From assembly GCA_012514535.1 (NCBI GenBank), contig JAAZAA010000262.1, forward strand, positions 1 to 40,783: a stretch of 40,783 nt of DNA. Reading direction: 5' to 3'. Of this stretch, positions 4,797 through 12,207 are shown piece after piece. The notes under the pieces were generated by a model. That model was not told the DNA's origin. It saw nothing but the letters and a program-made list of their open reading frames with translations, and ran no database searches. The stretch comes from Myxococcales bacterium (GTDB lineage Bacteria > Myxococcota_A > Polyangia > Polyangiales > Polyangiaceae). The translations under genes were made by a program, and so were the position numbers. Each line of letters begins with the position of its first letter. The first letter of the stretch is position 1.

Positions 4797-6191
4797 TCAC
4801 TCGGACTTCACGACCACGCCGAGGATGCTGTTGAACCAGACGTCGGTCGCTTCGCTGGCCCGGTCGTAGAAGATGTTCTGTTCGGACTTCTCGATCCGGT
4901 TGTCCCAGCGCAGCACCAGGTTCTCGACGGGCTTGAGCTCGAGGGTCACGGTCCCCGTCACCAGGCTGTTCCCCTCCGCGACCTCGTCGAGGGCGTCGGG
5001 ATCCGTCAGAGCCCAGACCCCCGCGTCGACGTCCTTGAGGTACTCACCGCGCAGGGCCACCCCGAACATCTCCGTGACGGCGTAGCCGACCGCGAGGCTC
5101 GCGCCCCAGAACGACGTGGAGTCCGCGTCCGAGCCCTCGTCCGGCTCGGCGATGTTGTAGTCGAAGTTGCCGACCATCGTGAAATCACCGGCCTGGAGCA
5201 CCGCCACGAAGTCGAAGAACCGATCGAGGCCCGCGCGCCCGCCGCCCGGATACAGCTCCGAGTTCATCGGATCGATCTGGTGCATGTAGCCGAGGGCCAT
5301 GTCGAGCCCATCGAAGGGCGTGAAGGTCACCTGGGCCGCCACCGCCGGGCGGTTGTTGTCCGGGACGAAGGGCTGGTTCGTCCCGTTGACCACCATGGCG
5401 TTGAAGCCGACGCGCTCGCTCGCCTGGTAGCTGGCGCGCAGACCCGTGTGCCAGAAGGGCTGCATGGCGTAGTACAGGGCGCCGCGGGTGTAGTTGAGGT
5501 TCTGCCAGCTCTCGGCCACCTCGGCGCCGAAGATCGTCCCGAACTGCCCGAAGTCGAGGGTGAGCTCCTCCGTGGGCGACCAGGTCAGGTAGGCTTGGGT
5601 GAGGGGATAGAATCGGTTCGATTCTCCCGAGCCGCTCTCGTCCCCGAAGAAGATCGGGTAGCCGGAGCCCAGCCGGAAGCTCGCCGTCGCCCCGATCTGC
5701 CCCCCGTCGTAGGTGATGTCCGCGCCGAAGAAGGACATGTTGAAGCCGTTGTAGGCGTCGTAGGCGCGGTGGGTCGGGAAGTGCGCGTGGTCACCGGGGC
5801 CGGGGACGGGGCTCGAGGTGTTGAAGGAATAGTAGGCGTCCGCGAAGGCGAAGATGCTGACCCCGCCGCTGTCCGACGGCGGCTCCGCCTCGGTCGCTGG
5901 AGGAGGCTCCGCGACCGCCGGCTCCGGGTCGTCCTCCGGGTCCTGGGCACCGTCGTAGACCGGCTCCGAGGACGACGCGGGAGGCGACGACGCCGGGGGG
6001 ACGGCGTCACTCTCCACCGCCGGGGCCTCCGCAGGATCGGCCGACTGGTCGGCACCTTCCGGCTGCGGCGGGATCAGCGGCTCCCCTTCGTCGTCCTGGG
6101 CGAGGGCACCGGAAGCGAAGAGCAGGGTCGCGCCGGAAATCACTGCGGCGAGGCGCACCGCACCGGGTCGTTTGGCAGGCGTCATGTTCAC
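4797..6191 (-). CDS. Outer-membrane beta-barrel porin (BBP2/OmpL-like)
   Basis: A 464-residue secreted protein. Residues 1-31 form a signal peptide (basic start, hydrophobic AAVISGATLLFASGALA core, cleavage near AQ). Residues about 32-109 are a disordered Pro/Glu/Asp/Ala-rich linker. From about 110 onward the sequence alternates aromatic and polar residues as in outer-membrane strands. Typical of the BBP2 putative-porin family are the FADAYYSFN opening, the HRAYDAYNGFNMSFFGADI block, GSGYPIFFGDE, LTLDFGQFGTIFGAEV, NLNYTRGALYYAMQPFWHTGLR, and the end in LGVVVKS followed by Glu. It is divergent from the SulP transporter across 389 bp, which suggests shared control and a joint role in anion passage. 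That pairing is inference. Confidence 0.82.
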   Translation of the reverse strand: MNMTPAKRPGAVRLAAVISGATLLFASGALAQDDEGEPLIPPQPEGADQSADPAEAPAVESDAVPPASSPPASSSEPVYDGAQDPEDDPEPAVAEPPPATEAEPPSDSGGVSIFAFADAYYSFNTSSPVPGPGDHAHFPTHRAYDAYNGFNMSFFGADITYDGGQIGATASFRLGSGYPIFFGDESGSGESNRFYPLTQAYLTWSPTEELTLDFGQFGTIFGAEVAESWQNLNYTRGALYYAMQPFWHTGLRASYQASERVGFNAMVVNGTNQPFVPDNNRPAVAAQVTFTPFDGLDMALGYMHQIDPMNSELYPGGGRAGLDRFFDFVAVLQAGDFTMVGNFDYNIAEPDEGSDADSTSFWGASLAVGYAVTEMFGVALRGEYLKDVDAGVWALTDPDALDEVAEGNSLVTGTVTLELKPVENLVLRWDNRIEKSEQNIFYDRASEATDVWFNSILGVVVKSE

Positions 6192-6580: not shown

Positions 6581-8155
6581 ATGGCAGCAACACCACCGCA
6601 TCACAGTCACAGTGGATCTCGCTTCCAGCTCCAGTACGACGGGCCCGCCTCCATCGTCGTCTTCCTGGTGGCCCTCCCCCTCTGCCTCGGGATCGCCCTC
6701 GCGTCCGGCGCGCCGCTCGTCGCAGGCCTCGTGGCCGGGATCGTCGGCGGCATCGTCATCGGCGCCCTCAGCGGCTCGCCCCTGTCCGTGAGCGGCCCCG
6801 CCGCTGGCCTGACCGTCGTCGTCCTCGACGCGATCCAGACGCTGGGGAGCTATGAGGCCTTCCTGGTGGCCGGGTTGCTCGCGGGCGCCCTCCAGGTCGG
6901 CCTGGGTTACCTGCGCGCCGGCACCCTGGGTGATTTCTTCCCGACGGCGGTCATCCGCGGGATGTTGGCGGGCATCGGCATCATCCTGATCCTCAAGCAG
7001 CTGCCCCACGCGGTCGGCTGGGACGCGGACTTCGTCGGCGACGAGAGCTTCGCCCAGCACAACGGGGAGACCACGTTCTCCGCCCTCGCCCACCTGGCGG
7101 ACCACATCAGCTGGGGTGCGACGATCATCGCGGTGGTGAGCCTCGGGTGCCTGATCGCCTGGGAGCTGCCGACGATTCGACAGAGCCGCCGGCTGCGCCT
7201 CGTCCCTGGGCCGCTCGTGGCGGTGCTCGCAGGCGTCGGGCTCAACGAGATGTTCCAGCGGGTCGCGCCGGGCCTCGCCGTCGGCGAGGGGCACCGCGTC
7301 ACCGTGCCGCGCTTCGACTCCTTCGAGGGGCTCAAGGCGGAGCTCTACTCACCCGACTTCGGGCAGCTCCTGTCGGGGCACGTGTGGGTGGTGGCCGTGA
7401 CCATCGCCATCATCGCGAGCCTGGAGACCCTGCTCTCCGTCGACGCCTCCGACCGCCTGGATCCCCAGCGTCGGCTCACCCCGAAGAACCGGGAGCTGAA
7501 GGCCCAAGGTGTCGGGAACATGGTGTCGGCCGCCCTCGGCGGGCTGCCCATCACGGCCGTGATCGTGCGCAGCTCCGCGAACGTCGTCGCAGGAGCGCGC
7601 ACCAAGCTGAGCTGCATCCTCCACGGCGCCTGGCTGCTGCTCTCGGTGCTGTTCCTCGCGAACACCCTGGCGCTGATCCCGCTGGCGAGCCTCGCCGCGA
7701 TCCTGCTGTTCGTCGGCTTCAAGCTGACCCCGCCTGCGCTCTACAAGCGCATGTACAAGGACGGCTGGTCACAGTTCGTCCCCTTCGCGGTGACCATCAC
7801 GGCCATGGTCCTGACGAACCTCCTGGTGGGCGTGCTCGTCGGGCTCGTGGTGGGGACGTTCTTCGTCTTCCACGCGAACTTCAAGACGGCCGTCTACACG
7901 GAGCAGGAGCGCGACCGGGTGCTCATCCGCTTCCAGAAGGACGTGAGCTTCCTCAACAAGGCGCGCGTGCGGCAGGTGCTCGAGAATATCCAGCCCGGCG
8001 CCGTCGTCGTCATCGACACCTCCCAGAGCGTGTTCGTCGACCGCGACATCCAGCAGACCCTCGACGACTTCTGTGCCCTCGCGCCCGATCGGGACATCAC
8101 GGTCGAGGTCCGGGGGAGCGAGACGGGCGGAGGCGACGACATCCGGGCCGCTTGA
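6581..8155 (+). CDS. SulP-family anion transporter with C-terminal STAS-like domain
   Basis: A 524-residue inner-membrane transporter of the SulP/SLC26 family, whose members move sulfate, bicarbonate or dicarboxylates. After a His-containing N-terminus, the family opening is seen at residues about 20-80 (YDGPASIVVFLVALPLCLGIALASGAP and then ALSGSPLSVSGPAAG). PTAVIRGMLAGIGIILILKQ and SLETLLSVDASDRLDP follow. The IIASLETLL...NRELKAQGVGNM block is a SulP signature. About 11-14 hydrophobic segments end near residue 440. The remainder (about 445-515, with VLIRFQKDVSFLNKA and AVVVIDTSQSVFVD) matches a STAS domain. The overall style resembles the bicarbonate/sulfate branch often found near carbonic anhydrases, but no such gene is present here, so the substrate is undetermined. 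The ATG at 6581 is the clear start. Confidence 0.9.
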   Translation: MAATPPHHSHSGSRFQLQYDGPASIVVFLVALPLCLGIALASGAPLVAGLVAGIVGGIVIGALSGSPLSVSGPAAGLTVVVLDAIQTLGSYEAFLVAGLLAGALQVGLGYLRAGTLGDFFPTAVIRGMLAGIGIILILKQLPHAVGWDADFVGDESFAQHNGETTFSALAHLADHISWGATIIAVVSLGCLIAWELPTIRQSRRLRLVPGPLVAVLAGVGLNEMFQRVAPGLAVGEGHRVTVPRFDSFEGLKAELYSPDFGQLLSGHVWVVAVTIAIIASLETLLSVDASDRLDPQRRLTPKNRELKAQGVGNMVSAALGGLPITAVIVRSSANVVAGARTKLSCILHGAWLLLSVLFLANTLALIPLASLAAILLFVGFKLTPPALYKRMYKDGWSQFVPFAVTITAMVLTNLLVGVLVGLVVGTFFVFHANFKTAVYTEQERDRVLIRFQKDVSFLNKARVRQVLENIQPGAVVVIDTSQSVFVDRDIQQTLDDFCALAPDRDITVEVRGSETGGGDDIRAA

Positions 8156-8612: not shown

Positions 8613-9608
8613 ATGAAGCCCCAGGTCCTGATCGACGCCATCGTCCGCCAGACGACGGTGCTCATCGCGCGCCTCTCCACCGCCGGAGGCGTGCGCTCGC
8701 CCTTGGGGCACGTCGCCAACGAGGTCTTCGTCGGCCTCGTGACCGAGCTCGAGAACGAGGGCGTGAGCAAGAAGGTCATCGCCGACATGTTCGGGATGGC
8801 GCTCCGCTCCTACCGCCAGAAGGTGCAGCGCCTCGGTGAGTCGGCGACCACCCGCGGTGTCACCCTCTGGACGGCCGTGCAGACCTTCCTCGCGGAGCGG
8901 GGCACCGCGACCCGGGGCGAGCTCCTGACGCGCTTCCAGTACGACGAGGAGGCGTCCATCCGCGGCATCCTCAACGACCTCGTCGAGAGCGGGCTCATCC
9001 TCCGCAGCGGGCGGGGTGACGAGACGCGGTATCGCGTCCCCACCGCGGAGGAGCTCCGCGACCTCGGCGCCTTCGTCGAGGACCGCTCGCAGGAGTCCTA
9101 CGCCGCCCTGGTCTGGGTGCAGGTGTACCGGGAGGGTCCCCTCAGCATGGAGCGCCTCGCGCAGCTCGTGCCCCTGCCCCAGGCCACCCTCGACGCGACC
9201 ATCGACGCGCTCGTGGCGGACGCGCGGATCCGACGCGATCTGCGCGACGGCGTCGAGGTGTTCACGGCGGAGCACGTGCTCATCCCCGTGGGGGAGACCG
9301 CGGGCTGGGAGGCGGCCATCGTCGATCACCACCGCGCGGTGCTCAACGCGATCGCCGCGAAGGTGACGACGGGCACGCGCACCTCCACCCCCGCCGACGA
9401 AGTGGGCGGCACGACGCTCACCTTCGACCTCTGGCCCGGGCACCCCCGCGAGCAAGAGGTCCGGAGCCTGCTGCGCGCGACCCGCGCCTTGGTGCTGCCC
9501 CTCTGGGAGGAAGTGACGGAGTACAACCGCATGCACCCGGGCAAGGAGACCTATCAGGTGAACTACTACTGCGGGCAGCACGTGCTCGAGGAGGACGAGG
9601 GCGTATGA
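8613..9608 (+). CDS. Double winged-helix protein, unknown function
   Basis: A 331-residue cytoplasmic protein without signal peptide or membrane segments. Residues about 25-75 form a helical start (EVFVGLVTELENEGVSKKVI), then two winged-helix-like modules. The first (about 92-148) runs from VQTFLAERGTATRGELLTRF to LVESGLILRSG. The second (about 168-235) runs from WVQVYREGPLSMERLAQLV to IDALVADARI. A C-terminal domain (about 236-331) contains a TFDLWPGHPREQEV block and ends in YYCGQHVLEED. The fold suggests a transcriptional regulator. I cannot name the family. ATG 8613 is preferred over an upstream start because homology-like residues begin there. Its stop overlaps the next start by 4 nt (ATGA), so it is translationally coupled to the GH30-like lipoprotein. 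Confidence 0.7.
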   Translation: MKPQVLIDAIVRQTTVLIARLSTAGGVRSPLGHVANEVFVGLVTELENEGVSKKVIADMFGMALRSYRQKVQRLGESATTRGVTLWTAVQTFLAERGTATRGELLTRFQYDEEASIRGILNDLVESGLILRSGRGDETRYRVPTAEELRDLGAFVEDRSQESYAALVWVQVYREGPLSMERLAQLVPLPQATLDATIDALVADARIRRDLRDGVEVFTAEHVLIPVGETAGWEAAIVDHHRAVLNAIAAKVTTGTRTSTPADEVGGTTLTFDLWPGHPREQEVRSLLRATRALVLPLWEEVTEYNRMHPGKETYQVNYYCGQHVLEEDEGV

Positions 9609-11266
9609 AGCCATCGGTTGCGTGGAACGTGATCCTCCTCGGCGTCGCGCTGGTGCTCGGCGCCTGCTCCCCCTCCGGGCCGCAGGTGGGCAGCCAGACG
9701 AACTGGTTGCGGGCCTGCGACTCGACGGACGAGTGCGGCGGACTCGAGTGCATCTGCGGCGTGTGCACGCTGCCCTGCGCGGAGCTGGCCTGCGGGGAGC
9801 TCCCGGACAGCGCCTGCGTCGCCTCGACCGAGACCGGCGCCATCGCGGTCTGTGGTGGCTCGGCCCCGCCGAGCGGGCTGTGTCTGCCCCGCTGCGACGA
9901 GGAGAGCTGCCCCGCGGGGACGAGCTGCCTGGCGGGGGTGTGCGCGCCCACGGGCACGCCCTCCGCCCGGGTGACGCTCGACCTCTCGGCGCGCCACCAG
10001 ACCCTCGTCGGCCTCGGCGCCTCCCTGGCCTACTCGGACGACGTGATCGCCGACCACGCGCAGCGAGAGGCCCTCTACGATCTGGTGTTCCGCGACGGCG
10101 GCTTCGACGCGCTGCGGTTCCGCAACCGCTACGAGACCGACGACGACGACCTGAGCGCCACCGCGGAGATCATCGAGGCGGCGACGGAGCGCCTCGGGCG
10201 CCGACCGTTCCTGTTCATGTCGTCGGCGACGCCCCCGGCTGCCCTCAAGGCCAACGCCTCCCGCGTCTGCGAGGGCGGCGACGCGGCCTGCACCCTGAGC
10301 ACCGTCGACGACGGCGGCTTCGACTACGCAGGCTTCGCGAACTACTGGCGCTCGGCCTTCGAAGCTTACGCGGCCCTCGGGATCGTCCCGGACTACTTCA
10401 GCATCCAGAACCACCCGAACCTCGTCTACGCAGAGGAGCACCGGGGTGAGGCGTGCCGCTTCTTGCCCGAGGAGGGCACCGCCAGCGTCACGATCGACGG
10501 GGAGCCGACCGACGTCGACTACCCGGGCTACCGAGAGGCCCTCGAGGCCGTGACCTCGTCGATCGCGGATCTCGAGGAGGTCCCCCGGGCCGCCGTCGCC
10601 GAGACCACCGGGCTCGTCACCGTCGGTGAGTACGTGCCGCCCCTGGATCCGACCACCTTCCAGGCCATCGCCTTCCACATGTACGGGGTGGACACGACCA
10701 CCCCCAACGTGGAGGCCCTCGAGAACGTCCGGGCCCTGTCCGAGGAGCTCGGGATCCCGGCGTTCCAGACGGAGATCCAGGCGGAGGGCTTCGAGACCGC
10801 CGTCCTCGCCCACCACGCCTTCGCCAGCGCGGGTGGCTCGCTCTACCTGCAGAACGATCTGGTCACCACGAGCCTCGACGCCCCGCCGCTCTCGCTCGTC
10901 CTGCTGAGGGACGAGGGCGTTCAGCCCCAGGACCCCTTCCACGCCCTGGCGCACTACGCCAAGGGGACGGATCCCGGCTGGGTGCGGATCGACGCGGAGG
11001 GCGACTCGTCGCAGCTGCTCTCCTCCGCGTGGCTCGCGCCCGAGGAAGACGCCCTGACGGTGATCCTGATCAATGTGGGTTCGGACGAGCTCCGTGTCGA
11101 GGTCGCGCTCCCCGAAGACGTCCGCGCGGCGTACCCCCAGACCCAGGTCACGCGCACCGGCTTCGACGGTCTCGAGCGCCAGGTGTCTCTCGGCGAGCTC
11201 CCCGCGAACGGGGTCGTCCACCTGCCGACCCGAGCGATCGTGACGCTGCAGCTCACCGCCCCCTGA
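9605..11266 (+). CDS. GH30-like lipoprotein with altered acid/base residue
   Basis: A 553-residue lipoprotein. The signal peptide ends in the lipobox LVLGAC (Cys21). Residues 38-113 form a Cys-rich module of the kind common in myxobacterial surface proteins (about 13 Cys). From about 122 the sequence follows glycoside hydrolase family 30: the QTLVGLGASLAYSDD opening, FLFMSSATPPAALKAN, a SIQN-x-PN segment after strand 4, AFHMYGV, FQTEIQ, and a C-terminal beta domain. In GH30 enzymes strand 4 ends in Asn-Glu-Pro, whose Glu is the acid/base. Here residues 269-271 are Asn-His-Pro (codon CAC at 10412-10414). The nucleophile position is retained as Glu390 in QTEIQ. It may therefore be a binding protein, or use an altered mechanism. 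It is co-expressed with the winged-helix gene by ATGA overlap. Confidence 0.8.
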   Translation: MKPSVAWNVILLGVALVLGACSPSGPQVGSQTNWLRACDSTDECGGLECICGVCTLPCAELACGELPDSACVASTETGAIAVCGGSAPPSGLCLPRCDEESCPAGTSCLAGVCAPTGTPSARVTLDLSARHQTLVGLGASLAYSDDVIADHAQREALYDLVFRDGGFDALRFRNRYETDDDDLSATAEIIEAATERLGRRPFLFMSSATPPAALKANASRVCEGGDAACTLSTVDDGGFDYAGFANYWRSAFEAYAALGIVPDYFSIQNHPNLVYAEEHRGEACRFLPEEGTASVTIDGEPTDVDYPGYREALEAVTSSIADLEEVPRAAVAETTGLVTVGEYVPPLDPTTFQAIAFHMYGVDTTTPNVEALENVRALSEELGIPAFQTEIQAEGFETAVLAHHAFASAGGSLYLQNDLVTTSLDAPPLSLVLLRDEGVQPQDPFHALAHYAKGTDPGWVRIDAEGDSSQLLSSAWLAPEEDALTVILINVGSDELRVEVALPEDVRAAYPQTQVTRTGFDGLERQVSLGELPANGVVHLPTRAIVTLQLTAP

Positions 11267-11628: not shown

Positions 11629-12207
11629 ATGACACTGATGCAGGTCATGCCCTCTGCCCCCGACGCGGACCTCTTCGAGGCCGTCCAGGCGGATCGGGAG
11701 GGGTGGCAGGCCCTGGCCTTCGAGCGCTACAGGGCGGCGGTCACCAGCCTGGTCCGGCGACAGTTCCGGGGGCAGCCCGACGACGTCGACGACATCGTCG
11801 CGGAGGCGTTCCTGCGTTTCCTCGAGCGGGCCTCTCGCGTACGTCGCGCCGAGAGCCTCCGCGCGTATCTCCTCTCCATCACGCAGAACACCGTGCGCGC
11901 CGAGATCCGCCGGCGCACCCGGCTGCGACGTGCCTTCGGGGCGCGGGACGGCAGCGTCGACGAGGCCCGATCCGTCGACGATCCCGCCGCGCGCGCCGCG
12001 CTGATCGAGCTCGGGGGCATCCTCGCGCGCATGGGCGAGAGCGAGCGCCGCGCTTACCTGCTCCGCGTGGTCGGCGATCTGGGGCTCGACGCCGTGGCGG
12101 ACGCCCTGGGGCTCTCCCGCTCCACCGCGCAGCGCCGCATCTCCGCGGCGTCGACGTTCCTCCGCAAGAGCGCGGCTCGCAACGCGCTCCTCTCCGAGTA
12201 CGTGTGA
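11629..12207 (+). CDS. ECF-type RNA polymerase sigma factor
   Basis: A 192-residue sigma-70 family protein of the short (ECF) type. Region 2 spans about residues 25-95: FERYRAAVTSLVRRQF, then the DDVDDIVAEAFLRFLE helix (core binding) and SLRAYLLSITQNTVRAEIRRR (-10 recognition). Region 4 spans about 130-185, with the helix-turn-helix LDAVADALGLSRSTAQRRIS. There is no sigma-3 domain and no long C-terminal extension. No anti-sigma gene lies beside it: downstream is convergent dapB and upstream the GH30-like gene. The start is ATG 11629; in-frame ATGs at 11638 and 11647 are alternatives, and no strong ribosome-binding site separates them. Confidence 0.85.
   Translation: MTLMQVMPSAPDADLFEAVQADREGWQALAFERYRAAVTSLVRRQFRGQPDDVDDIVAEAFLRFLERASRVRRAESLRAYLLSITQNTVRAEIRRRTRLRRAFGARDGSVDEARSVDDPAARAALIELGGILARMGESERRAYLLRVVGDLGLDAVADALGLSRSTAQRRISAASTFLRKSAARNALLSEYV

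Follow-up and report, generated by a model that had tools for sequence, protein, structure and literature searches.

A GH30-type lipoprotein with histidine at the acid/base position, encoded with a tandem winged-helix protein in a paralogous gene pair of Myxococcota

The window studied here, a stretch of 40,783 nucleotides of contig JAAZAA010000262.1 from a Myxococcales bacterium (assembly GCA_012514535.1), encodes a lipoprotein that resembles GH30 xylanases. At the place of the catalytic acid/base its motif reads SIQNHPN, so that His270 (codon CAC) stands where the canonical N-E-P has Glu. What, then, does such a protein do: cut a glycan in some altered way, bind it, report on it, or nothing at all? 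The original prediction from this DNA had named a carbohydrate-binding or sensor lipoprotein and a changed mechanism as the options. In this study, we compare the protein, its gene partner and its relatives across the phylum.

The GH30-type head and its acid/base position

The features of the lipoprotein gene and of its upstream partner are collected in Table 1. By sequence, the closest GH30 xylanase is the solved 9ywn, which matches residues 122-550 with an E-value of 2.6e-53 (phmmer). An AlphaFold2 model of the lipoprotein, built from 15 aligned relatives (mean pLDDT 88.1, pTM 0.85), ranks GH30 entries first in Foldseek, the best structural match being the GH30_8 xylanase 5cxp (VIA-align; Z 41.2, rmsd 2.1, 366 residues aligned). 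The head shows the (beta/alpha)8 barrel with side beta sandwich of the family, in line with the GH30 fold of the original prediction. The Pfam and NCBIfam profiles match only below their cut-offs (PF17189, 17.6 bits against 22; NF052681, 25.1 bits against 650), and the head is therefore a divergent one. With xylanases of GH30 subfamilies 8 and 10 (5cxp, 3kl0, 7n6h; 9ywn) it shares barrel, sandwich, nucleophile Glu and several conserved residues, whereas the replaced acid/base, the loss of two Trp, an insertion after strand 4, the Cys-rich module, the lipoprotein nature and the winged-helix pairing set it apart. The window head is GH30 by fold; as an enzyme, it retains the GH30 nucleophile and lacks the N-E-P acid/base that follows strand 4.

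Table 1. Features of the lipoprotein gene and its partner (window positions)
Feature	Position	Strand	Basis or remark
Tandem winged-helix protein gene, lipoprotein partner	8613..9608	+	weak family matches, model, paralogues
GH30-like lipoprotein gene	9605..11266	+	ORF, 553 aa
Signal peptide and lipobox VLGAC (Cys at residue 21, Ser at +2)	9605..9667	+	translation reading
Cys-rich module, constant, about residues 30-115, common to lipoproteins with differing heads	9692..9949	+	
GH30-type head, residues 121-551, barrel and beta sandwich	9965..11257	+	
His270 codon CAC, acid/base position	10412..10414	+	
Insertion of about 12 residues near 293-304; strands in model; module clade only	10481..10516	+	
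Glu390 codon GAG, nucleophile position, kept in 25/25	10772..10774	+	
Asn417; Trp in 8/8 homologues outside the module, in 0/16 readable module members	10853..10855	+	

Homologues drawn from 193 related genomes and further stretches provided 25 GH30 domains for comparison, duplicate rows having been removed before counting (L014, L016, L028, L029 and L030 equal L240, L245, L243, L244 and L015, respectively). Seventeen are module members; the other eight, from the same order or class, lie outside the module, with neither the Cys-rich module nor the winged-helix gene seen (in L245 the upstream, winged-helix side is cut by the contig end). His270 aligns with the N-E-P Glu of 9ywn and of all eight outside homologues, which retain it without exception (codons GAG or GAA). 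Among the module members Glu is found in 0/17: the position is Asn in 15 (AAC or AAT), Asp in L239, and His in the window copy alone. One Asn member, L007, also has Lys in place of the preceding Asn, and L239:3658 reads NDP with the codon GAC, and might keep some catalysis or represent an intermediate. Glu390, the nucleophile position in the strand-7 motif, is Glu in all 25 aligned domains, in agreement with the original prediction.

The 17 module GH30s form one clade with full tree support (100/100), and the loss of Glu thus counts as one event, not 17. Judging from the codons, the path most simply ran from Glu to Asn to His, the His of the window likely arising from an Asn ancestor by one base (AAC to CAC). 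The earlier argument that two base changes separate CAC from a Glu codon, and that a sequencing error is not at issue, holds: as the loss extends over the whole clade, it reflects neither chance nor error. Where a clade of NHP homologues beside the same winged-helix gene had been expected, the clade and the pairing are there (16/17), but most members read NNP, NHP is confined to the window, and the pairing turns out to belong to a two-gene unit of wider occurrence, whose heads are of many kinds. That the gene is decaying, or the product of an assembly error, is hardly credible: the assembly is a draft of 442 contigs and the reading frame of one relative is broken in two (L015/L030), against which stand an intact reading frame, the clade-wide substitution, a conserved pocket and a low dN/dS in a close pair.

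That pair is L011/L012, the closest in the module, with a dN of 0.10 and a dS of 0.75 over the head, which places the GH30-type module protein under purifying selection. Sixty-two alignment columns are invariant in the eight outside GH30s; 36 of these persist in 90% or more of the module clade and five are lost from all of it, namely E270, F391 (the neighbour of the nucleophile), W417, W421 and G430. Arg171, Lys215, His358, Tyr360 and Glu390 are invariant across all readable GH30 rows. The insertion after strand 4, modelled as two strands, occurs in the module clade, L008 having a shorter form, and is absent from the eight others. The changes centre on the active site, which fits a pocket that would still bind and would no longer protonate a leaving group, and a loss of normal hydrolysis in the window protein is well supported.

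The alternative of an enzyme with a changed mechanism would have Glu390 form the covalent intermediate, with the turnover of substrates that have good leaving groups completed by an external base, by another residue or by His270 itself, or would have the sugar passed on by glycosyl transfer. The GH1 myrosinases of plants work by a mechanism to which this may be likened. The universally kept nucleophile and the Asp of L239 speak for such an enzyme, which we nevertheless regard as improbable, given that no new invariant acid appears in the module clade of the GH30 alignment, that the acid/base position drifts between Asn, His and Asp, that W417 and W421 have gone as well, and that unrelated heads of the same unit type are also disarmed (see below). 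Columns 147, 182, 240, 311, 363 and 368 are acid-rich in module members only; none of the six is invariant and none adjoins the acid/base motif in sequence. E282 is also present in homologues that keep the Glu. The alignment hence offers no conserved substitute acid.

A two-gene unit with many heads

The stop codon of the winged-helix gene overlaps the start of the lipoprotein gene in the sequence ATGA (9605-9608). In profile searches the partner gives weak matches to several winged-helix families. Its model is of low confidence (pLDDT 74, pTM 0.49) and contains two winged-helix-like parts, with which Foldseek found nothing beyond a tandem winged helix. The gene lies beside 16 of the 17 module GH30s, the seventeenth (L027) being cut by a contig end, and the partner is conserved across 60 aligned copies. 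Fragments counted, matches to it number 36 in one genome of 10.4 Mb, 17, 13, 12, 11, 11 and 9 in other genomes, 2 in the window's own genome, and 2 and 1 in two genomes of its genus; in a draw across the phylum, 51 of 359 genomes gave a match at E 0.001, many of them weak. The PADLOC models of anti-phage defence returned no family for either protein of the window, and the upstream regions of 13 GH30-type winged-helix genes, compared in search of an operator, gave nothing alignable (L013 was too short).

We sampled 119 winged-helix loci outside the GH30 clade. At 102 of them the winged-helix gene is followed on the same strand by a gene for an exported protein with the same Cys-rich module, the Cys-module gene starting 67 to 562 bases past the winged-helix stop. 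The exact ATGA overlap occurs in 26 of these 102 units, and a strict lipobox pattern in 60, three of which carry Asp at +2. The window pair is one copy of this paralogous two-gene unit of Myxococcota. No third conserved gene was found at the 119 loci, whose stretches reached only some 100 bases beyond the winged-helix gene on its upstream side; large extra gene clusters at these loci proved to be antisense frames of the module genes, and a cluster of PAS-kinase frames at eight loci was dropped, as it looked like chance overlap. Our search of a partial library, which is no proof of absence, found no paper on the winged-helix/Cys-module unit.

What follows the Cys module varies widely: 100 heads (99 sampled and that of the window) fall into 54 BLAST groups, with Pfam matches to Kunitz (5), Pacifastin (4), peptidase S74 (3), GDSL (3), RCC1 (2) and VWC (2) domains, and to receptor L domain, EGF, laminin-G, Kazal, FGE and PHB esterase in single heads. 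Variable heads on a constant exported N-terminal module, in many paralogues, would also suit polymorphic recognition or toxin delivery, the head being a ligand for cell-cell recognition or a toxin. TraA of the TraA/TraB system of Myxococcus xanthus likewise combines a variable domain with Cys-rich repeats, and the SitA proteins of the same species are modular lipoproteins in many copies (PMC13184517). We consider this reading very improbable, however. Sit toxins adjoin cognate immunity genes (PMC13184517), whereas the partner gene here is neither a TraB nor a variable immunity gene but encodes a conserved winged-helix protein; the heads, moreover, look disarmed rather than toxic, and PADLOC found no match.

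Distances between winged-helix proteins correlate with those between their Cys modules (Mantel r 0.51 over 95 pairs, the largest of 999 nulls being 0.15), and 41 of the 60 units with a shared head type have, as closest relative by their winged-helix protein, a unit with that same head, genome relatedness being uncontrolled in both comparisons. These figures bear on the main rival to a sensory role, in which the lipoprotein would do no more than bind glycan at the surface: its head would hold polysaccharide or fasten cells to it, and the winged-helix protein would control the expression of the unit, by autoregulation or alternative surface display, with no signal from the head. No membrane-spanning partner and no route from the exported lipoprotein across the envelope to the cytoplasm was found; the overlap of the genes shows co-expression and nothing more; several other heads are of binding type (Kunitz, VWC, RCC1, LRR), and two GH30-type units have solute-binding proteins encoded on their downstream side. 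A regulator of its own for each lipoprotein, with correlated distances between the two (relatedness not controlled), nonetheless exceeds what capture would need, and we take binding alone to be possible but, on balance, doubtful.

Disarmed heads and neighbouring enzymes

Loss of catalytic residues recurs in heads of other descent. In SGNH-type heads the block V His is absent in 16/16, and in a wider search the block III Asn and block V His are both absent from all 13 heads that come with a Cys module and a winged-helix gene, against 14 of 15 readable homologues keeping the His and 12 of 14 keeping the Asn where neither winged-helix gene nor Cys module is present (L292 gave no row and L305 stops short of block V). 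Twelve of the 16 SGNH heads keep the Ser of GDS, much as the nucleophile is retained in GH30 heads. An SGNH profile gave no useful alignment to solved structures. Esterase-type heads have Ala for the Ser of the GxSxGG-like motif in 3/3; in homologues outside the unit the residue is Ser in 21 of 27 and Leu in six, so that the catalytic Ser can also be lost outside the unit. These six (L251, L253, L257, L259, L261 and L262, with the motif LTGGG) are possibly a further group of non-catalytic esterases. The pectate-lyase-like head L144 reads DDNPS where 9buj has SRTPR, the Arg of which we take to be catalytic.

Three S74-type heads (L120, L121 and L201), read by eye, seem to keep the Ser and Lys pattern, and the peptidase S74 chaperone domain at their ends may point to trimeric heads. 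CAP-like heads (L145, L204) and an FGE-like head (L235) count neither as intact nor as disarmed, and L166 was excluded from set A6, its head start having been mis-set. As far as they could be aligned, the heads derived from hydrolases and lyases thus appear mostly disarmed, an association that rests on four separate recruitments and not on the number of sequences. The second unit of the window's own genome (L158, L260, L320; contig C24) has a disarmed SGNH-type head, and its winged-helix gene is divergent from a neighbouring esterase gene in which the SMGGG motif is intact.

Genes for carbohydrate-active enzymes stand beside several units. The GH30-type units L031 and L036 adjoin a GH10 gene, the only GH10 match in those two genomes, with motifs (VNEPPP and SEYD or TEMD) that look intact; L042, the same gene as L008 and from the window's own genus, adjoins GH5 and GH43 genes; L043 a GH43 gene with CBM6; L038 and L039 esterase genes; and L040 and L041 a GDSL esterase gene and a gene for a solute-binding protein, the latter downstream of the unit. 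Of 17 SGNH-type units, four have a neighbouring esterase with an intact SMGGG motif and six a GDSL esterase. The same families were found by homology at none of 17 control units, a comparison that is partly circular, the queries having come from the test loci. In a blind pick of the best GC3 frame on each side, a CAZyme turned up at 3 of 14 GH30-type loci, window included (L036, L042 and L043), and at no more than 2 of 17 control loci (GH94 once and GH8 once among 33 picks), which is no clear enrichment. That scan, at thresholds of E 1e-10 for controls and 1e-3 for the others, covered 15 of 26 picks at GH30-type loci and, in a slightly shorter frame, the upstream pick of the window, and left out L031, L032, L036 and the window downstream, L040 and L041 upstream, and L038 and L039 on both sides. 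From the neighbours, xylan is a lead as the ligand class.

No carbohydrate enzyme gene was found beside the window's own unit, which is flanked by genes for a SulP-type transporter and an ECF sigma factor. The latter lies downstream of the lipoprotein gene (11629-12207, +); upstream of the unit are a BBP2-type porin gene (4797-6191, -) and the SulP-type gene (6581-8155, +). DUF1592-type and DUF1552 genes, adjoining each other, occur near five GH30-type units (L032, L033, L040, L041 and L042), and these families may be common in these genomes. At L238 (G047:C392) two canonical NEP GH30 genes are divergent and adjacent.

A proposed role for the unit

All together, these observations allow us to propose a model, which we regard as evenly balanced between right and wrong, in which the former GH30 head binds a hemicellulose-type glycan without cutting it and serves as the specificity element of a winged-helix response. 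A surface lipoprotein, made of the constant Cys-rich module and a variable head, would be translated together with its own tandem winged-helix protein. The head would descend from an enzyme of GH30 xylanase type in which the acid/base was lost (Glu to Asn, then to His in the window copy) together with two aromatic residues close to strand 8, the insertion behind strand 4 was acquired, and the conserved residues were otherwise for the most part retained. Displayed outside the cell, where we infer the window lipoprotein to be exposed, it would most likely bind its glycan, no cutting being involved; glycan binding by the head is plausible from what remains of the pocket. The winged-helix protein, encoded on the same message, would be the cytoplasmic side of the same task and would execute the response. 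The window lipoprotein is thus probably a substrate sensor; we infer signalling via the unit, and any path of the signal to the cytoplasm is speculative.

Several known systems resemble parts of this arrangement. In Klotho and other glycosidase-like receptors the glycosidase fold is kept for binding after catalysis has been lost, as we suggest here, although Klotho is of GH1 type, is found in animals and has no paired DNA-binding protein. The Sus-type surface glycan-binding proteins of polysaccharide utilization loci are outer, non-hydrolysing lipoproteins, and the window protein would resemble them in being an outer lipoprotein that probably does not hydrolyse, of a unit sometimes beside CAZyme genes; it differs in its glycosidase-derived head and dedicated winged-helix partner, and a SusC-type transporter was not seen. 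A likeness is also found in the SigI/RsgI pairs of Clostridium thermocellum, which are paralogous regulator-sensor gene pairs with differing extracytoplasmic sensory modules (PMC6056542; also treated in PMC12203970). The proposed unit would resemble them to some extent in design, paralogous regulators being paired with sensors of varying extracytoplasmic modules, but the parts differ. RsgI is one protein, an anti-sigma factor that spans the membrane and has a cytoplasmic domain, whereas here an exported lipoprotein accompanies a winged-helix protein and no link between them was found; the partner matched winged-helix families only, with no sigma domain, and Pfam detected no anti-sigma domain with a transmembrane helix in the lipoprotein.

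The model raises the testable question whether an exported lipoprotein can govern a DNA-binding protein in the cytoplasm at all, and by what means, when no partner spanning the membrane is in sight. On a wider scale, we suggest tentatively, and as somewhat less likely than its opposite, that Myxococcota hold an expanding and undescribed repertoire of receptors, each a winged-helix regulator with a surface lipoprotein, in which enzymes of unrelated folds (GH30, SGNH, esterase and pectate lyase) have been recruited and then disarmed to sense ligands, often with an intact enzyme for that class of substrate close by, so that the dead copy reads and the live one cuts. If this is true, a disarmed enzyme with a Cys-rich module beside a winged-helix gene would name the ligand class of its unit, a rule by which substrate sensors could be found in predatory bacteria and in those that degrade polymers, and the gene family would be one in which enzymes were turned into binding proteins repeatedly and independently.
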